A stretch of DNA of 64,000 nt from Stigmatella ashevillena (GTDB lineage Bacteria > Myxococcota > Myxococcia > Myxococcales > Myxococcaceae). The stretch covers positions 5,078,425-5,142,424 of the forward strand of contig NZ_JAQNDM010000002.1 in assembly GCF_028368975.1 (NCBI RefSeq), in the 5' to 3' direction. This document shows, piece by piece, positions 7,247 through 14,489 of the stretch. A model generated the notes under the pieces. It had not been told where the DNA came from and did no database searches. It saw only the letters and a list, made by a program, of their open reading frames with translations. How positions within the stretch are numbered: the first letter of the stretch is position 1; each line of letters begins with the position of its first letter. The position numbers were made by a program, and so were the translations under genes.

Positions 7247-7666
7247 TTAGAGCACCTGGTACTGCACGACGATGTTGCCGAGATCCGTGTTGGCGATCTG
7301 CGTGAAGGCGCCGTAGGTCAGATCCAGACAGACCGCGCCGCCAAAGCCACCCCGGTCATTGATGGTCACCGTGACCGACTTACCTTGGTAGGTCACCTTG
7401 ACCCGGGTGCCAAATGGCAAGGTTTTGTGGGCGGCCTTGAGCGCCATCCGGTGAAACGGCTCTCCGCTCGCCGTCGGCCAGCCCTCGGGAATCTCGCCCA
7501 CTGCGCCGTACCAGGTGGCGTTACAGGTGGCCATCGTGCCAATGGAACTCACGGAAGCCTCTGCCGGGCGGGCCAGCATGAGGGTGCCCGTCACGCCAAC
7601 GCCCACCACGAGGGCGGCGGCGAGCAATGCATAACGGTGAAAGGTCAGACGATTCGTTGTGTCCAA
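7247..7666 (-). CDS. RlpA-like double-psi beta-barrel protein, exported
   Basis: A 139-residue protein with an N-terminal signal peptide (hydrophobic YALLAAALVVGVGVTG) and a single double-psi beta-barrel domain. ATWYGAVGE, TASGEPFHR, AAHKTLPFGTRVKVTY and VTINDRGGF follow the RlpA pattern. The Glu of TASGE and the Asp of INDRG correspond to residues important for lytic transglycosylase activity in Pseudomonas RlpA. There is no SPOR domain, so it is a short secreted version that may cleave or bind peptidoglycan. Two cysteines could form a disulfide. It appears to be monocistronic with an AT-rich upstream region. Confidence 0.8.
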   Translation of the reverse strand: MDTTNRLTFHRYALLAAALVVGVGVTGTLMLARPAEASVSSIGTMATCNATWYGAVGEIPEGWPTASGEPFHRMALKAAHKTLPFGTRVKVTYQGKSVTVTINDRGGFGGAVCLDLTYGAFTQIANTDLGNIVVQYQVL

Positions 7667-7786
7667 GGATGTTCTCCAGGGGTTGGCAAAAGCCTCTCAT
7701 TGCGTGCTGCCAGCACACCCTTCAACCGGATTGCCTGGATGTCCACTTTTACAACTTTAAATCTGATATAGACTTAACGAAGCAAT

Positions 7787-9220
7787 TCACCTGATCCAGC
7801 TCATCGTGGAATTCAACCGTACGGGTGGAGATGAAGGCGGAGGGAGAACCCATCCTTTGGGCGACAAACCATCCTCTTCGCGCGCCAGATCCGCCTCGGG
7901 ATCCACGAAGCGCTCCGAAGGACGGCCATTCAACGACACGCGCGCATCCGCGTGGACCTCGACCCGGCCCCGCCCCTTTGCCTCGAAGTCTCGCGCGATG
8001 CGGTGTGCCAGTTGGAGGATGAGGTCCGGCTGGACCGACATCTCCCGCTCCTGGAGCCGCGTGAGGTACTGGCTCGGAGGCACATGCCACTCCCGACCCG
8101 TGTCCGGATCGCGAACCACGAACGTCACACTGCCATTCTTCTCCCGCGTCATGACGCGCCATGAGAAGCGCATGCCTTGCTCATGCCAAGAGACATTACC
8201 CCCATACAGGTGGGTCCGCAGTGGGAGGAGGAGCTGAAGCAGGCCGTAAGCCACCGCCGCGCCCAACGCCCACCGGGCCTTTCGACTCGGCGCGATGGGT
8301 ACGCGCGATCCGGACACAGGGAGGACTGGCTCGGGTGGGCCGTTTGGCCTGCCGAACAGCCGCTGGAGCCGCGCCCAGCCCCACCGGGGCCAGGACGGGC
8401 CGAAGAACACCAGCGCCGAGATGACCATGATGACGGGGAACATCCCGATGGGAAACAGCATCGAGGTCGCCGCATGGAAGCCCAGCACCACCCCGTAAGC
8501 CCATGGGCGGAGCCGCCGGTTCAGCAGGAAGACGACGATGGCCGTGTCGAAGAGGAAGCCGGCCCAGGCCGCGGCATATGCCACCCAGCGCTGATCCAAC
8601 AGCGGCCCGGCCAGCGGCAGGCTCGTGCGCGCCGACAGCCAGATGCTGAGCGGCTGCGCGTGGAGCAGCCAGTCGGAGGTGAGCTTGGCAAGCCCGGCGA
8701 ACACATAGACCACCGCGACCTGGAAGCGCAGGAGGTACGTGCACCAGGCGGGCAACACGTCCCGACGCAGGGCCGAGTTCCTCCAGGCATCCACGGAGAA
8801 CGCCCGGTGCGCGGGCACGAAGCAGAGCAGCCCTGCCAGCAGGCTCACCAGGTAGTAATGGTTGAGGTAGTTGGTGACGTCCACCAGTTGGACATAGGTG
8901 AACGTGACGAAGAGCAGGACCACCGCCACCCGGTAACAGAACCCCGCGGCCACGCACAGGCCCAGCACGGCCAGGACGGCGAAGACCCCGTGGATCCACG
9001 GCGCGGGCAGCACTGGGATCCACGAGAACCCCCAGTAGGAGAAACGGAACTTTGCTCGGACGAACAGCTCGTCGACCCAGCCGTAGGCGAGAAAGCGCAC
9101 CGCCGACACCGTGATCATCAGCCCGAACGCCACCCGGAAGGCCGCCAGCGCCGCGATGTCCTTCGGCGCGAGCAGCCACTCCCAGAGACCCGAGCGCCCG
9201 CCCGGCCCCTGCTTAGTCAT
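7787..9220 (-). CDS. HTTM-domain (vitamin K-dependent gamma-carboxylase-like) membrane protein
   Basis: A 477-residue protein with several transmembrane helices in the first 330 residues and a soluble C-terminal part. The opening ALAAFRVAFGLMITVSAVRF and LVDVTNYLNHYYLVSLLAGL match HTTM proteins, the bacterial relatives of vitamin K-dependent gamma-glutamyl carboxylase. Bacterial HTTM functions are largely unknown. The start codon overlaps the end of the imelysin-like gene by 8 bases, so the two are translationally coupled. The pairing suggests modification or membrane handling linked to the periplasmic lipoprotein. Confidence 0.8.
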   Translation of the reverse strand: MTKQGPGGRSGLWEWLLAPKDIAALAAFRVAFGLMITVSAVRFLAYGWVDELFVRAKFRFSYWGFSWIPVLPAPWIHGVFAVLAVLGLCVAAGFCYRVAVVLLFVTFTYVQLVDVTNYLNHYYLVSLLAGLLCFVPAHRAFSVDAWRNSALRRDVLPAWCTYLLRFQVAVVYVFAGLAKLTSDWLLHAQPLSIWLSARTSLPLAGPLLDQRWVAYAAAWAGFLFDTAIVVFLLNRRLRPWAYGVVLGFHAATSMLFPIGMFPVIMVISALVFFGPSWPRWGWARLQRLFGRPNGPPEPVLPVSGSRVPIAPSRKARWALGAAVAYGLLQLLLPLRTHLYGGNVSWHEQGMRFSWRVMTREKNGSVTFVVRDPDTGREWHVPPSQYLTRLQEREMSVQPDLILQLAHRIARDFEAKGRGRVEVHADARVSLNGRPSERFVDPEADLAREEDGLSPKGWVLPPPSSPPVRLNSTMSWIR

Positions 9221-10439
9221 TGTCCCCTTCCACCGAAGACGGCAGCTCGAGATCCAACACGGTGACCAGATCGACCTTGAGCAGATCCGTCACCCCCTTG
9301 ACCGCGTCGTACAGCGCCCGAACCGAGGCCTTGTCCTGGGCCAGCGCCTCCCGGAGGTCCGGCTCGTCCACGGCCTCGAGGGCCGCCTGAGCCGCGGGAA
9401 CCCGCTCGCGAAGCGCCACCGCCAGGGGCTCGGAGCCCACCGCGATCAGCAGGTCATCGAATCCCGTGCCCGAGTAGTCCGCGCCACACCCCTCGACCAG
9501 CCGCCGGAACCCCACCAGGTTGGCCCGCACGTTCGCCTTCGAGCGCCCCGCGAACTGCGACTCCAGCAGCTCCGGGCAGGTGTTGCTGTCGCAGTCCCTG
9601 AGGGCGAGCGGCCGCGCGAGCTTCATGTCCTTCACCTCCCGCTCGACGTAGAAGAGCGCGTCACTCAAGGCGTTCAACGCCCCCTGGCTCGTCGGGTACA
9701 CGGAATTGCCCGAGCCCGCGGTCTCCAACGTCCGCAGGAAGTTTCCCTTGTCCGCCGCCCATGCCTCCACGAGGAGATCCGCGCGGCGGCGCACATCGGC
9801 GGCCACCACCACGGCATAGGCCCGCTTGCGAGCCTCCCGCTCTTCCGTGGACAAGGCTGACCACGTGCCCCCCGCGACGATGGGAGAGGTGGGGGGACAC
9901 GCGGTGTCCGCCCCCGCGTAGAAGAGGAGATACTCCAGGGCATACAGCCCCCGGCGGCTCACCAGGGAGGATGGAAAGCCGGGCGTCTCGTACGACTTGG
10001 AGACGATCTGCTCCTCGATCGCGCACCGGCTGACCAGGGGCCAGGAGTAGATGTTGTCGCGCAGCTCCGCCCCCCCCGCGACACTCCGCGGCGCCGCGGG
10101 CCCCAGCTGAAACACCTCCGACACCTGCCAGGAGTCCATGGCCCCGTGGAATGCCGTGCGAGCGGCCTGGCGCGTCCCCTCCTCGGGGCTCGCGGCGAAG
10201 GCCGCCACCGCGGACTCCAATCCGGCGGCTGTCCTCTGGAAGTCCTGGGCGCTCGTCAGCACACAGCTTCCCGCAGCGGACAACAGCGCCCCGCGCGTGG
10301 TTTCCGCCGCCCCTCCTGTCCCGCCGTCTCCGGGTCCCGGTTTGTTCTCCTCTTTGCACGCGGAGAGGCTCAGGAGGGTGGCCAACGCACACACCGTCCC
10401 GCGCGGGGGCTTCTTGAGAAAACGCCTCGTCTCATCCAT
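9213..10439 (-). CDS. Imelysin-like lipoprotein
   Basis: A 408-residue lipoprotein precursor: signal peptide ALATLLSLSAC with lipobox Cys at about residue 27, then a Gly-rich linker and a helical imelysin fold. Imelysins (IrpA, EfeO relatives) are periplasmic iron- or copper-linked proteins. The family's GxHxxE motif is present as GLYALEYLLFYAG, so the histidine is replaced by tyrosine while the glutamate is kept. The ATG at 10439 is chosen because it gives a clean lipoprotein signal; the frame is open 28 codons further. Divergent from the delta-60 repeat gene with a Fur-like box between them. Confidence 0.8.
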   Translation of the reverse strand: MDETRRFLKKPPRGTVCALATLLSLSACKEENKPGPGDGGTGGAAETTRGALLSAAGSCVLTSAQDFQRTAAGLESAVAAFAASPEEGTRQAARTAFHGAMDSWQVSEVFQLGPAAPRSVAGGAELRDNIYSWPLVSRCAIEEQIVSKSYETPGFPSSLVSRRGLYALEYLLFYAGADTACPPTSPIVAGGTWSALSTEEREARKRAYAVVVAADVRRRADLLVEAWAADKGNFLRTLETAGSGNSVYPTSQGALNALSDALFYVEREVKDMKLARPLALRDCDSNTCPELLESQFAGRSKANVRANLVGFRRLVEGCGADYSGTGFDDLLIAVGSEPLAVALRERVPAAQAALEAVDEPDLREALAQDKASVRALYDAVKGVTDLLKVDLVTVLDLELPSSVEGDND

Positions 10440-10589
10440 GGCTCCGCACCTACCTGATGATTTTGCAAATGACAAACGTTCGCAATTAACACTTGAGAGC
10501 CTCTTGAAATCATTGAAGATCACTGGGTCGAAGATGCCTCATTGACATCTATTTGGACCTCCACATATGGACGCGGCCACCCTGGGTTT

Positions 10590-10639
10590 TGAAAACGATA
10601 ATTGTTTTCAGAATTCCGGAATCGCTTTGTTTTCAGAAT
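10590..10639. promoter_or_regulatory. Fur-box-like operator with a repeated half-site
   Basis: GAAAACGATAATTGTTTTC (10591-10609) matches the 19-base Fur consensus at 14 positions and has 7-base outer arms TGAAAAC/GTTTTCA. The 13-base string TTGTTTTCAGAAT at 10602 is repeated exactly at 10627, adding a third half-site 25 bases downstream. The block lies in the divergent region between the imelysin and delta-60 genes, so it could control both by iron. Confidence 0.6.
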
Positions 10640-10681
10640 AAAAGGACACACCACATGCACGACGAGACGAAGGACCCCGGG

Positions 10682-12139
10682 ATGAAGGCGACGCTCGCCG
10701 GGGCGCTGGTCCTGGCGCTGGCCCTGGGGTTCATGGGCGGCTGCGGCGACGATGATGAGGAGGGTGTCGCGCCTCCCACGCCCGACGCGGGCTCGGGCGA
10801 TGCGGGGACAGGCGATGGGGGCTCGGGCGATGGAGGCTCGGGCGATGGCGGGACGCCCCCCACGGTCGACGACACCGATCTGGCGGTGGTGCGCTTCAAC
10901 ACGGATGGCACCGTGGACACCACCTTCGGGACCAACGGCATTGCCACGGTGGACCTGAGCGCGGGCACCGCGAGCGCGCGGGACACCCTGTGGAGCATGG
11001 ACAGGGACATCTCCAACCGCCTCGTCTTGTTCGGCGGACGGAAGGCGGATCCGAACCGCGCGGACCTCGACTATGCCGTGGCCCGGCTCACCGCCAACGG
11101 CGCGCTCGACACGGCGTTCGGCACCAACGGCATCTACACCCTCAACGTCTCCAACCTGAGCGAGCAGGCGCGCAATGGGTATGTTCAACCAGACGGGAAG
11201 ATCCTCGCGGCCGGGTACCTCTCCCAGCCCACGGGAGTGGGCGCGCAGGCGGCCAACCGGGTTCTGCTCCAGCGCCTGGATGACAGCGGCAAGCTGGACA
11301 CCTCCTTCGGCTCGAAGGGCGTGGTGAACTCGGCGCCGTTCAAGTCCGCAGATCCCGACAACGTGGAGTGGGGCATGGCCGAGGCCTATGCCGCCGGTTT
11401 TCAGTCGGGCAGCTACGTCACCACGGGCTATGGCCGCACCGCCCCCTCGGGCACGGTGGACCTGGTCTCCTTTCGCTACACGGCGGCGGGCCGGTTGGAT
11501 CCCACGTGGGGCACCAATGGCGCTTATGTGCTGAATCTGACGGGCGCCGATGACCGTGGCCGTGACCTGACCGTCCTTCAGGACAACCGGGTGTTCATGG
11601 TGGGCAGCGCCACGCCGGCGACGTCCAACATCGATGCCCTGGTGGTGATGCTCCAGCCCAACGGCCAGCCGGACACGGGCTTCGCCGCCGAGGGTTACAA
11701 GACCTACGACTTCGGCCGCGCGGACGAGGCTTTCTTCGATGCGGCGATCTCGCCCGATGGCGCCTGGGTCGCCGCGGCGGGTTACTCGGCCGTCTCGGCC
11801 ACCGACAGCGACGCGGCGCTGCTCGTGCGGTCGACGACGAGCGCCACGGAGTTCTCCGACGTGGTTCCCCTCTCCGAGACGGCGAACAACCGCTTCTGGT
11901 CTGTCGCGTTCAACCCGGCGAGCACCCAGGTGTACGCCGCGGGCTTCATCACCGAGAATGGCGACAACCACTTCGCCGTGGCGCGCTACAACACGGACGG
12001 CACCCTGGACACCACTTTCGGCACCAACGGCATCGCGAAGCTCAACGTGGTCGCCGCGGGGACCCTCGAGACGGCCCGCTCTGTCGTCGTCCAGTCCGAT
12101 GGCAAGATCGTGGTGGCGGGGATCATCGAAAAGAAGTGA
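10682..12139 (+). CDS. Delta-60 repeat lipoprotein
   Basis: A 485-residue lipoprotein precursor. The signal peptide MKATLAGALVLALALGFMGGC ends in a lipobox, followed by a low-complexity D/G/S/T linker, then at least six delta-60 repeats such as FNTDGTVDTTFGTNGIATV and YNTDGTLDTTFGTNGIAKL, which build a beta-propeller-like domain. The ATG at 10682 (GAAGGA 7 bases upstream) gives a better signal peptide than the ATG at 10655, which adds an acidic start. Its place just upstream of the TonB receptor and opposite imelysin suggests a surface-exposed partner in metal uptake, which is inference. Delta-60 proteins have no defined biochemical role. Confidence 0.8.
   Translation: MKATLAGALVLALALGFMGGCGDDDEEGVAPPTPDAGSGDAGTGDGGSGDGGSGDGGTPPTVDDTDLAVVRFNTDGTVDTTFGTNGIATVDLSAGTASARDTLWSMDRDISNRLVLFGGRKADPNRADLDYAVARLTANGALDTAFGTNGIYTLNVSNLSEQARNGYVQPDGKILAAGYLSQPTGVGAQAANRVLLQRLDDSGKLDTSFGSKGVVNSAPFKSADPDNVEWGMAEAYAAGFQSGSYVTTGYGRTAPSGTVDLVSFRYTAAGRLDPTWGTNGAYVLNLTGADDRGRDLTVLQDNRVFMVGSATPATSNIDALVVMLQPNGQPDTGFAAEGYKTYDFGRADEAFFDAAISPDGAWVAAAGYSAVSATDSDAALLVRSTTSATEFSDVVPLSETANNRFWSVAFNPASTQVYAAGFITENGDNHFAVARYNTDGTLDTTFGTNGIAKLNVVAAGTLETARSVVVQSDGKIVVAGIIEKK
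10790..10848 (+). repeat. 15-base tandem repeat encoding a GSGDGG linker
   Basis: Four 15-base units start at 10790, 10805, 10820 and 10835; three begin GGCTCGGGCGATG and one is degenerate. They encode the Ser-Gly-Asp linker after the lipobox and could vary in copy number between strains. Confidence 0.7.
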
Positions 12140-12162
12140 GTTGAACTCCTGAGCGTTGCCGC

Positions 12163-12198
12163 CTGGACACGGAGGGGCCTGCCCTCTTCCGTGTCCAG
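12163..12198 (+). terminator. Strong hairpin between delta-60 and TonB receptor genes
   Basis: CTGGACACGGA at 12163 pairs perfectly with TCCGTGTCCAG at 12188, and the inner bases extend the stem. No U-tract follows. It may be a terminator, an mRNA 3' end or a partial attenuator that separates lipoprotein from receptor expression. Confidence 0.5.
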
Positions 12199-12251
12199 TT
12201 GCGGAAGACGCTCCTGTTTCAAGCCGTCCCGCGCACGGAGAGGGACAGACG

Positions 12252-14489
12252 ATGCAAGCACGAATGTGGGCGTTCCTTCTCGTCCTTTCGACGGGAGCGG
12301 CGGCTCAACCGGTGGAACCCGCTGCGGAGACACCCCCCAGCGCCGAGGAAACTCCCGCGGTGGACGAAGGTTCGCCTCCCCAAGAGGTGATCCCCCTCCA
12401 GGAGCCGAAGAAATTCGAGAGCGTGGTGGTGGGAACCTCGGAGACGCGGACCAGCGGCTCCATCCACATCCTCACGCCAGCCAAGCTCCAGCGGTTCGAG
12501 TTGGATGACCCCGCAGCGATCCTCCAGTCGGTGCCCGGCGTCTATGCCCGAGGCGAGGACGGGTTCGGGCTGCGTCCGAACGTCGGCCTGCGAGGCGTGA
12601 ACCCTGACCGCAGCAAGAAGGTGACCCTGCTGGAGGATGGCATCCTCTTCGGCCCAGCCCCCTATTCCGCGCCGGCGGCCTATTACTTCCCGCTCATCAC
12701 CCGCATGCAGTCCGTGCGCGTCCTCAAGGGGCCCTCGGCCATCCAGCAGGGCCCGCAGACCGTGGGCGGCTCCGTCGAGTTCATCACCCGGGACATCCCC
12801 GGCGGAGAGGACTACGGGGTGGATCTGGGCGGTGGCCAGAACCTCTACGGCAAGTTCCATGGCCACTACGGGGCCAGCACGGAGCACTCGGGGTTCGTGG
12901 TGGAGGGCGTGCACCTGCGGAACGACGGCTTCAAGGAGCTGGACTCCGGCGGTAACACGGGCTTCCGCCGCAACGAGTGGATGATGAAGGCCCGCCACGA
13001 GTTCGACCCCGTGGGAGAGGCACGCCAGAGCCTCCAGCTCAAGCTGGGCTACTCCGATGAGTCTTCCAACGAGACCTACCTGGGGTTGAGCGACGCGGAC
13101 TTCGAAGAGAATCCCCTGCGCCGCTATGACGCGAGCCGCATGGACCACATGCAGTGGCACCGCACCCAGGCGGTGCTCAGCCACCAGCTCGAGTTCGACG
13201 GGCTGGCGGTCACCACCCAGGCCTACCGCAATGACTTCCATCGCATCTGGCGGAAGGTGAACCGCTTCGAGGGCGCGAGCATCGCCAGCGTGCTGGCGGA
13301 CCCCACGAGCGCCCGAAACGCCATCTATTACGGCGTGCTGACCGGGCAGATCGACTCCTCGACCGCGCAGGAGACGCTGCTCATCGGCCCCAACAACCGC
13401 GCCTTCGTCTCGCAGGGAATCCAGAGCGTGGCGCGGTGGAGCCCTACCACCGGCCCGGTGAAGCACAACGTGGAGCTGGGGGTCCGGTACCACTACGACC
13501 GGATCGACCGGCTGCACACGGAGGATGGCTTCCTGACGCTCGCGGGAGAGCTGATCCCGGACGGCAAGGCCACGCGGACCACGGCCGACAACATCGACTC
13601 GACGCATGCCCTGGCATTCCATGTAACGGACGCCTTGGCGTGGGAACGGTTGTTGGTGACACCTGGGGTGCGGTTGGAGGTAATCCGCTCCCACTCCAAG
13701 GACCATCTCACCGGGACGACAGACAAGGGCTCCCTCAACGTGCTGATGCCGGGACTGGGTCTCTATGGCGCGCTCACCCGCTCCCTGGGGCTGTTCGCCG
13801 GCGCGTACCGGGGCTTCTCGCCCCCGGCGCCCGGCCAGAATGCGAAGCCCGAGAAGAGCATCAACTACGAGGGGGGCGCCCGGTGGACCCGCAGCGGCGA
13901 GCGCTTCGAGGTGGTGGGCTTCTTCAATGACTATTCGAACCTCACGGACATCTGCACCTTCTCCAATGGGTGTGTGAACGATGATCTGGACAGCCAGGTC
14001 GATGCCGGACGGGCGCACATCTGGGGCCTGGAGGTCTTCGCGGAGAAGATCTTCCGTCCGGGCGGGGGCATCACCTTCCCCACCTCGCTGGCCTATACGC
14101 TCACCCGGACACGGCTCCAGGAGGATTTCCGCTCGGCGGACCCCCAGTTCGGCGTGGTCCAGGCCGGGGACGAGATGCCCTATGTGCCGCTCCACCAGTT
14201 GGCCGCTTCGGCCGGCGTGGAGGCAGCCCTAGGGGGGCTCTTCTTGAGCGCCACCTATGTGGACTCCATGCGGGAGAGCGCGGGGCAGGGCGAAGTCCCG
14301 GAGGGTGAGCGGACAGGCTCGCTGCTGACGTTCGATGCGAACGCGAGCTGGAACTTCTCCCGCGAAGGGCTGCTGTACCTGAACGTGCGCAACATCCTGG
14401 ACAAACAGGTCGTCGTGTCGCGGAGGCCTTTCGGCGCACGGCCGAATGCCCCCCGCCTCATCACGGCGGGGCTCAAGTACTCGTTCTGA
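12252..14489 (+). CDS. TonB-dependent outer-membrane receptor, FecA-like
   Basis: A 745-residue receptor: signal peptide (MWAFLLVLSTGAAAQ), a Pro/Glu-rich stretch, a plug domain (ILTPAKLQRF, DPAAILQSVPGVYAR, RPNVGLRGVNPDRSKKVTLL, DGILFGPAPYSAPAAYYFP) and a 22-strand-type barrel ending LITAGLKYSF. The plug most resembles ferric dicitrate receptors of the FecA group, so a ferric chelate is the likely cargo, taken up with energy from TonB-ExbBD, which are not in the window. The start ATG follows GGGACAGACG; the frame is open further upstream. Placed after the delta-60 lipoprotein and near a Fur-like box, which supports an iron role. Confidence 0.9.
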   Translation: MQARMWAFLLVLSTGAAAQPVEPAAETPPSAEETPAVDEGSPPQEVIPLQEPKKFESVVVGTSETRTSGSIHILTPAKLQRFELDDPAAILQSVPGVYARGEDGFGLRPNVGLRGVNPDRSKKVTLLEDGILFGPAPYSAPAAYYFPLITRMQSVRVLKGPSAIQQGPQTVGGSVEFITRDIPGGEDYGVDLGGGQNLYGKFHGHYGASTEHSGFVVEGVHLRNDGFKELDSGGNTGFRRNEWMMKARHEFDPVGEARQSLQLKLGYSDESSNETYLGLSDADFEENPLRRYDASRMDHMQWHRTQAVLSHQLEFDGLAVTTQAYRNDFHRIWRKVNRFEGASIASVLADPTSARNAIYYGVLTGQIDSSTAQETLLIGPNNRAFVSQGIQSVARWSPTTGPVKHNVELGVRYHYDRIDRLHTEDGFLTLAGELIPDGKATRTTADNIDSTHALAFHVTDALAWERLLVTPGVRLEVIRSHSKDHLTGTTDKGSLNVLMPGLGLYGALTRSLGLFAGAYRGFSPPAPGQNAKPEKSINYEGGARWTRSGERFEVVGFFNDYSNLTDICTFSNGCVNDDLDSQVDAGRAHIWGLEVFAEKIFRPGGGITFPTSLAYTLTRTRLQEDFRSADPQFGVVQAGDEMPYVPLHQLAASAGVEAALGGLFLSATYVDSMRESAGQGEVPEGERTGSLLTFDANASWNFSREGLLYLNVRNILDKQVVVSRRPFGARPNAPRLITAGLKYSF

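Follow-up and report, generated by a model that had tools for sequence, protein, structure and literature searches.

Why a relative of the human vitamin K-dependent carboxylase should stand among envelope genes tied to iron is the question raised by a locus of Stigmatella ashevillena, a myxobacterium with a 10.95 Mb genome. We analysed this locus within a window of 64 kb (the whole stretch of DNA, C2:5078425-5142424), in which a gene for an HTTM / vitamin K-dependent gamma-carboxylase (VKGC)-like membrane enzyme overlaps the end of a gene for an imelysin lipoprotein, and genes for a delta-60 repeat protein and a TonB-dependent receptor run in the opposite direction. The reading that we favour, at slightly better than even probability, is that of a Fur-controlled iron-uptake locus in which the membrane enzyme, a member of the GGCX family, acts on the D-x-D tail at the C-terminus of the imelysin with which it is paired. 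Bacterial relatives of the vitamin K carboxylase, whose function is not known to have been settled, gain here a frequent partner, a setting under iron regulation and a short candidate substrate motif.

The imelysin gene (9213-10439, minus strand) encodes a protein of 408 aa with a lipobox, LSAC, at Cys28, and matches PF09375 with 121.4 bits (cut-off 23.5, E 7e-35). Its AlphaFold model (pLDDT 90.7) resembles the solved structures 4ecg, 3pf0 and ICMP 7xrx (E 1e-7 or better) and, more weakly, EfeO 7wgu and EfeM 7q1g; the last eight residues average 73 and form a short, less ordered end. Residues 164-169 read GLYALE and lack the His of the imelysin motif GxHxxE, so family membership rests on profile and fold. 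Directly before the stop codon, D406-N407-D408 are encoded at 9216-9224 (minus strand), and the gene end, GAC-AAT-GAC-TAA, contains the ATG of the HTTM gene. The two genes overlap by 8 nt and thus look translationally coupled.

This ending is a conserved property of imelysins that neighbour an HTTM gene. The final residues stand out in a conservation table of 78 linked imelysins, and the imelysin nearest each HTTM ends in an exact D-x-D-stop in 87 of 89 cases, the two exceptions being a frameshifted gene (L091) and a protein one residue longer (L132). The middle residue is Asn, Gly, Thr or Asp, or Ala in an additional locus (L210). Among 37 diverse imelysins, only W227, E293, G317, D406 and D408 are invariant. 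By comparison, the tail was found in none of 12 rows for the other imelysin of operons with a di-haem oxidoreductase (DHOR), one of these proteins being split in two and the second HTTM-adjacent imelysin of L126 being excluded. It was also found in none of 26 DHOR-type imelysins without an HTTM nearby (L001, L163, L165-L183 and L199-L203), a set with many closely related members. This last count excludes L152 as a repeat of L001, L155-L162 and L164 as the other DHOR-operon imelysin counted elsewhere, and the weak matches L191 and L195, neither of which ends in D-x-D. As a background, 4938 non-imelysin open reading frames of at least 200 aa (counted from stop to stop in loci that overlap in part, so that many are not genes) included none ending in D[NGT]D and six ending in D.D. 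Three of these six lie directly upstream of an imelysin-free HTTM gene (L061, L063 and L064, from two genera); they are homologous to one another and are small lipoproteins unrelated to imelysin.

Pfam returned no match for the small protein of L063 and only a sub-threshold match for that of L061. The proteins of L063 (7466-8116) and L064 (10320-11045, minus strand) are Gly-rich, small and secreted and end in SDFD 14 nt before the HTTM gene, and the small secreted protein of L061 (~7467-8123) ends in SDSDSD and overlaps the HTTM start.

The association was also recovered independently of the HTTM pattern [MF]R[FW][SA]W that had helped to find relatives, using the Pfam family and an imelysin profile in 195 Myxococcota genomes, with reach to profile position 379 taken as a proxy for the tail. 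There, 67 of 88 VKGC matches had within 2.5 kb an imelysin matching the profile to the tail end. Such imelysins occurred in 70 genomes, VKGC in 72 and both in 66 (Fisher p 1e-39, kinship ignored). A tblastn search of plasmids with the window imelysin gave no match; the same search with the HTTM protein gave four records, three of them without imelysin and one, from Bacteroidota, with an imelysin-DHOR-imelysin-HTTM locus that carries the tail pattern too (DNDGD).

We next consider what kind of enzyme accompanies this tail. The HTTM gene (7787-9220, minus strand) encodes 477 aa that match Pfam HTTM with 274.7 bits (E 1e-81) and VKGC_lumenal_dom with 161.8 bits (E 2e-47; both cut-offs 27.7), so that membrane and luminal domains are shared with human GGCX, as is the fold family. 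All eight phmmer matches in the PDB at E <= 0.01 were vitamin K-dependent gamma-carboxylase, the best aligning residues 16-449 with human GGCX (E 5e-41) over human residues ~55-492. The earlier note on this DNA had listed HTTM as a family of unknown function; the match to the GGCX family corrects that statement, and the counterparts of catalytic Lys218 and His160 are kept. Alignment numbering was fixed on human K218, whose counterpart is K179 (codon at 8684-8686, minus strand, from the alignments); H121 aligned with H160 independently of that anchor. PMC12589487 also names this lysine K218 and describes it as the active base that acts on the hydroquinone; the Glu side chain is held there by N159, H160 and Y395. 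The equivalents of N159, H160, K218, W223, H287, W390 and W399 are unchanged in all 102 aligned HTTM relatives (three short fragments excluded), and the first four are also kept in 15 of 15 further HTTM sequences. In contrast, the window protein has Met at human Y395 and Arg at human H404, and has no counterpart of the human protein beyond ~492, including the propeptide-binding residues W501-T591 given in PMC12589487. The quinone-oxidising centre is therefore conserved and the substrate side different, and because the alignment stops at ~492 we call the protein GGCX-like rather than a vertebrate-type carboxylase. It is a GGCX-family protein by sequence and a putative enzyme. Its partner differs as well, being a lipoprotein with a C-terminal D-x-D tail and not a propeptide-Gla substrate.

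The pocket was compared between linked and unlinked HTTMs. At the positions of human Y395-G396, a non-His residue followed by Arg was found in 89 of 89 imelysin-linked HTTMs, in L061 and L063, and in 9 of 9 further linked HTTMs (L204, L210, L211 and L217-L222). In 9 of 12 HTTMs without a nearby tailed partner, His comes first (L005, L028, L035, L066, L205, L206, L207, L213 and L214); the remaining three are L212, with Ala-Lys, and L111 and L135, which show the linked form. L072-L151, the top 80 of at least 521 relatives (one genome per species), were found partly via the pattern [MF]R[FW][SA]W, which enriches Arg beside the Y395 position by design, and the loci found through Pfam are therefore the fair test of the pocket.

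To place the pair in its surroundings, 145 genomes from the order were searched for VKGC and regions were fetched around 67 of the 70 matches; of the other three, one is the locus of the source genome itself and two, at contig edges of G046, were left out. With the four window proteins as tblastn queries, all four were found in 40 of these 67 loci and HTTM together with imelysin in 56. In the wider collection, which adds the 80 relatives L072-L151, 150 HTTM stretches from 103 loci were left as 105 after removal of redundancy at 90% identity, and neighbours were identified with profiles grown from seed proteins. Within 6.5 kb of these 105 HTTMs, an imelysin was present in 89 cases, a TonB receptor in 78, a delta-60 protein in 40 and a DUF4856 protein in 30; delta-60 and DUF4856 never occurred together, and 10 HTTMs had none of these families nearby. 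Imelysin is thus the commonest partner of HTTM, whereas delta-60 and DUF4856 exchange for each other in what we call the slot. The commonest orders were TonB receptor-delta-60 divergent from imelysin-HTTM (23) and DUF4856-imelysin-HTTM-TonB receptor (22), and a second architecture, imelysin-DHOR-imelysin-HTTM, has no TonB receptor. Judged by their labels, loci came also from Bacteroidota, Gammaproteobacteria, Acidobacteriota, Planctomycetota and Bdellovibrionota. The earlier note had named a lack of co-occurrence in other genomes as what would speak against its reading of the cluster, and the neighbours just counted show that imelysin and TonB receptor recur widely. All four of its envelope genes and the divergent promoter were likewise found where it had placed them, by re-reading and profile identification; it had recognised the imelysin but missed the conserved tail and the GGCX kinship of its neighbour.

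The two genes on the plus strand complete the cluster. The delta-60 gene (10655-12139) encodes a probable lipoprotein (DUF5122, a beta-propeller by Pfam) that matches TIGR02608 in seven stretches (229.5 bits, cut-off 76.5, E 1.7e-69). The receptor gene (12252-14489) encodes a Pfam Plug and barrel protein whose closest solved relative is FecA (phmmer E 1e-25); with 111.6 bits against a curated cut-off of 1100 for the FecA equivalog NF041676, it is only FecA-like. DUF4856, identified by Pfam in L067, gave a model that is nearly all helical, unlike the propeller-type delta-60. A relationship of DUF4856 to imelysin was considered and rejected (profile comparison probability 3.6%), and Foldseek found no PDB match to the model at E <= 0.001; the best VIA-align score was Z 6.9 with alpha-catenin/vinculin bundles, in a range called common for helical models. 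The DUF4856 alignment has a consensus D-x-N-G-D-G-x-I-x-L, like a calcium-binding loop, in a protein otherwise mostly helical.

The proposed iron link of the locus, including a Fur-like divergent promoter, was borne out by a site in the window and by its recurrence upstream of most relatives except DUF4856-first operons. In the intergenic region between the imelysin and delta-60 genes (10440-10654), CGATAATTGTTTTCA at 10596-10610 has three mismatches to TGATAATNATTATCA, the 7-1-7 Fur core used for scoring. It is the sole site with at most three mismatches in the 64 kb. In the relatives, we took the best match with at most four mismatches within 420 bp before the profile match of the leading gene. 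Fur-like sites preceded 27 of 29 non-redundant imelysin-first loci with delta-60 nearby (2.2% of shuffles), 5 of 6 imelysin-first loci without delta-60, 6 of 7 delta-60-first loci, 4 of 4 imelysin-DUF4856 loci and 8 of 11 loci of the DHOR type (shuffles 5%). They were absent from all 10 rows (9 loci) of HTTMs without imelysin or TonB receptor; other orders gave 2 of 5 and one frameshifted locus 1 of 1, and 7 loci were too short for use. The locus is therefore best described as an iron-linked envelope cluster with a predicted Fur operator.

A different enzyme family appears in some clusters that lack HTTM. Ten tail-type imelysins have no VKGC within 2.5 kb. Three of them share their cluster with a membrane protein of the FA_hydroxylase family (G171, G187 and G093), three are second copies in genomes that have a linked VKGC elsewhere (G096, G099 and G054), two are on a different contig from the VKGC (G130 and G135) and two have neither enzyme (G049 and G051). 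Counted by genome, two of the four with a tailed imelysin and no VKGC (G093 and G187) have the hydroxylase in the cluster. In G171 the FA_hydroxylase takes the exact position of HTTM, between a GDSD-tailed imelysin and a TonB receptor, and this genome has elsewhere an imelysin-DHOR-imelysin(DGD)-HTTM locus. The three proteins (L188:4906-5904, L209:7950-8927 and L208:9470-10408; Pfam was run on that of L188, to which the other two were matched) share the His clusters of the family, and the imelysin tail is kept in all three clusters. FA_hydroxylase may thus be a non-orthologous replacement of HTTM, and the apparent exchange would amount to a natural experiment in which two chemistries at the same tail can be compared. 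Among 11 further homologues listed, six-frame profile scans of 8 loci found no imelysin, HTTM, DUF4856, delta-60, TonB receptor or DHOR alongside, and the family overall is therefore not tied to imelysin.

The mechanism that we propose builds on what is directly observed, namely the cluster, its regulation motif, the GGCX centre and the association of tail and HTTM. Low iron would lift Fur repression at the divergent promoter, where the motif lies, and the imelysin, delta-60 protein and receptor would be exported, the imelysin presumably being placed in the envelope as a lipoprotein through its lipobox. With reduced menaquinone and O2 as substrates at its Lys218/His160 centre, HTTM would then recognise the free D-x-D tail and modify it by carboxylation, hydroxylation or another reaction, the acidic side chains being the most likely targets; what is observed for this step are gene adjacency, the tail and the active-site residues. 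The modified tail would create or improve a site for metal binding or receptor docking, from which iron would pass to the FecA-like TonB receptor. From these sequences, we infer that the tail is a recognition or modification site for HTTM and that the product aids iron capture. A bolder version, which we consider doubtful, has a membrane oxygenase, HTTM or in some lineages the FA_hydroxylase as a di-iron enzyme, turn the Asp-x-Asp of the tail into beta-carboxy- or beta-hydroxy-aspartate, making the lipoprotein a genetically encoded, protein-borne chelator that presents a siderophore-like Fe(III) ligand to the FecA-like receptor. These two products are guessed from the reactions that the two enzyme families catalyse; if true, the making of such a chelator would be what many bacterial homologues of the vitamin K carboxylase do in the cell. 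The closest logic is reportedly the MbnH/MbnP-type modification of a copper-binding partner.

Several observations weigh against the favoured reading. The main one is that G049 (GDSD) and G051 (GDAD) keep the tail with neither HTTM nor FA_hydroxylase in the locus; both belong to one genus, have the order imelysin-DUF4856-TonB receptor and no VKGC in the genome, and although a remote homologue of FA_hydroxylase and a weak match to HTTM occur in G051, G049 has neither at the thresholds used. They are among eight tail-type imelysins whose fetched stretch contains no HTTM (L184-L188, L194, L196 and L197), all of which keep D-x-D; three of the others are second copies with a linked HTTM elsewhere, two are on a different contig from the HTTM and one is accompanied by FA_hydroxylase. 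Conversely, imelysin-free HTTM loci other than L061, L063 and L064 (L005, L028, L035, L066, L111, L135 and others) showed no clear D-x-D partner, and two of these, L111 and L135, nevertheless have the linked pocket form. DUF4856-first operons have a Fur-like site in just 9 of 25 cases (shuffles 13%), and some of the segments scanned there may still fall within the upstream gene. Human GGCX targets Glu after an N-terminal propeptide, and a GGCX-type enzyme that acts on an Asp tail at the C-terminus would be a novelty. In the imelysin tree, tail-less imelysins form one clade of 22 rows (support 100/97), and the tailed ones include a 66-row clade (100/100) and a set comprising Bacteroidota and DHOR-type proteins. 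Because the tail-less proteins form one clade, the tail-HTTM link within imelysins may be a single, deeply conserved evolutionary event; independent support for it comes from the unrelated lipoproteins and from the FA_hydroxylase exchange.

These points bear differently on the alternatives. A possible reading, though clearly one that we hold below even odds, is that the tail is not a substrate and instead serves the imelysin as a signal for docking or sorting (to the TonB receptor, the slot protein or outer-membrane delivery), with HTTM doing a separate job in the same iron regulon, such as quinone or lipid oxidation. The tails of G049 and G051 would then need no enzyme in the locus, and TonB receptor and slot protein are likewise widespread partners. 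Yet the HTTM-adjacent imelysin of imelysin-DHOR-imelysin-HTTM operons is tailed where no TonB receptor or slot protein was detected, except in the tandem locus L126, and an unrelated lipoprotein beside an imelysin-free HTTM also ends in D-x-D at a place where no TonB receptor was detected. It is unlikely that HTTM performs classical GGCX chemistry, gamma-carboxylating Glu in the imelysin body or in the slot protein to give Gla-type metal sites. The catalytic centre is retained and E293 belongs to the five invariant imelysin residues, but the human Y395 and H404 positions differ, the region after ~492 has no counterpart, the slot protein is exchangeable, and imelysins are not Glu-rich overall (class A mean 6.2% Glu; no dedicated scan for Gla-like clusters was made).

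Far less probable still is the model of the earlier note, a metal uptake route in which the TonB receptor has the delta-60 lipoprotein as its dedicated receptor partner at the surface. The delta-60 gene does directly precede the receptor gene in the window and in relatives, but it accompanies only 40 of 105 HTTMs, the unrelated helical DUF4856 stands in for it in 30 others, never with both present, and in some loci receptor and delta-60 genes are on opposite strands or sides. The least credible explanation is that the tail is conserved merely through overlap with the start codon of HTTM (aATGac). Overlap of the ATG with the tail codons is possible in 52 of 87 loci; it could contribute to holding the middle Asn constant and is in this respect a further point against the favoured reading. 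However, no start codon lies in the tail in 30 of 87 (overlap impossible in 14, no start codon in 13, another gene order in 3), and five further loci have GTG or TTG only, yet D-x-D persists in all of these with varied codons; the L063 and L064 lipoproteins end 14 nt before HTTM; overlap was therefore rejected as the sole cause of the tail.

Enzymatic action on the tail, if true, would add a post-translational step to bacterial iron uptake, give menaquinone a second job and offer insight into roles of GGCX-type enzymes beyond blood clotting. A Leptospira vitamin K carboxylase homologue with altered activity was reportedly described around 2005, but we did not find it in the open-licence literature, to which our search was limited (bioRxiv and most subscription journals lie outside). 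In that literature, we found no paper discussing an association of HTTM/VKGC with imelysin and none linking DUF4856 with imelysin or imelysin with sterol desaturase. The only paper found with both imelysin and gamma-carboxylase concerns Riemerella anatipestifer (PMC5609570). There, a table on Fur regulation under iron restriction lists RAYM_09779-09794 in adjacent rows as TonB-dependent receptor, Vitamin K-dependent gamma-carboxylase, putative lipoprotein Imelysin and hypothetical, and the discussion names that TonB receptor as Fur-regulated. The row of receptor, VKGC and imelysin resembles the window locus; the fourth gene is not annotated as delta-60, and in the passages found VKGC and imelysin are table rows and are not discussed as a system. 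The gene set is thus already listed as Fur- and iron-responsive in Riemerella, and the D-x-D tail on the HTTM-linked imelysin is the new observation. In Leptospira, the imelysin-DHOR-imelysin genes of the LruB-DHOR-imelysin operon LIMLP_14170-14180 respond to iron limitation (PMC7567364 and PMC13066512). The order is that of the second architecture, for which an iron response is predicted. Unlike our loci, no HTTM or VKGC is mentioned in the passages seen ('carboxylase' is absent from both main texts), and the window locus differs in carrying a single imelysin and lacking DHOR. The imelysin-type fold is shared with EfeO/EfeM of EfeUOB iron uptake, from which the window cluster differs in that no EfeU or EfeB was seen, in GLYALE for GxHxxE and in the D-x-D tail.

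Other features of the loci and of the source genome were noted. L126 carries both architectures in tandem, imelysin-HTTM-TonB receptor followed by imelysin-DHOR-imelysin-HTTM. Three loci appear decayed: in L019 (G058) the TonB receptor and HTTM remain and no imelysin or delta-60 was detected, in L023/L091 (G068) the receptor and imelysin genes have frame breaks, and in L065 (G047) HTTM is split. At L005:5721-8067, the HTTM gene lies directly 3' of a Tox-REase-5 / Imm52 toxin-immunity pair. Besides the cluster, the source genome has one further imelysin, beside a DHOR, one VKOR homologue far away, and one further HTTM protein without the VKGC luminal domain. This second HTTM protein is shorter, lies at C2:4698785-4699153 (L154) beside DUF5819 and is possibly SdpB-like. 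Just past the HTTM gene of the window, a small DPBB (lytic transglycolase-like) protein is encoded at 7247-7666 on the minus strand.

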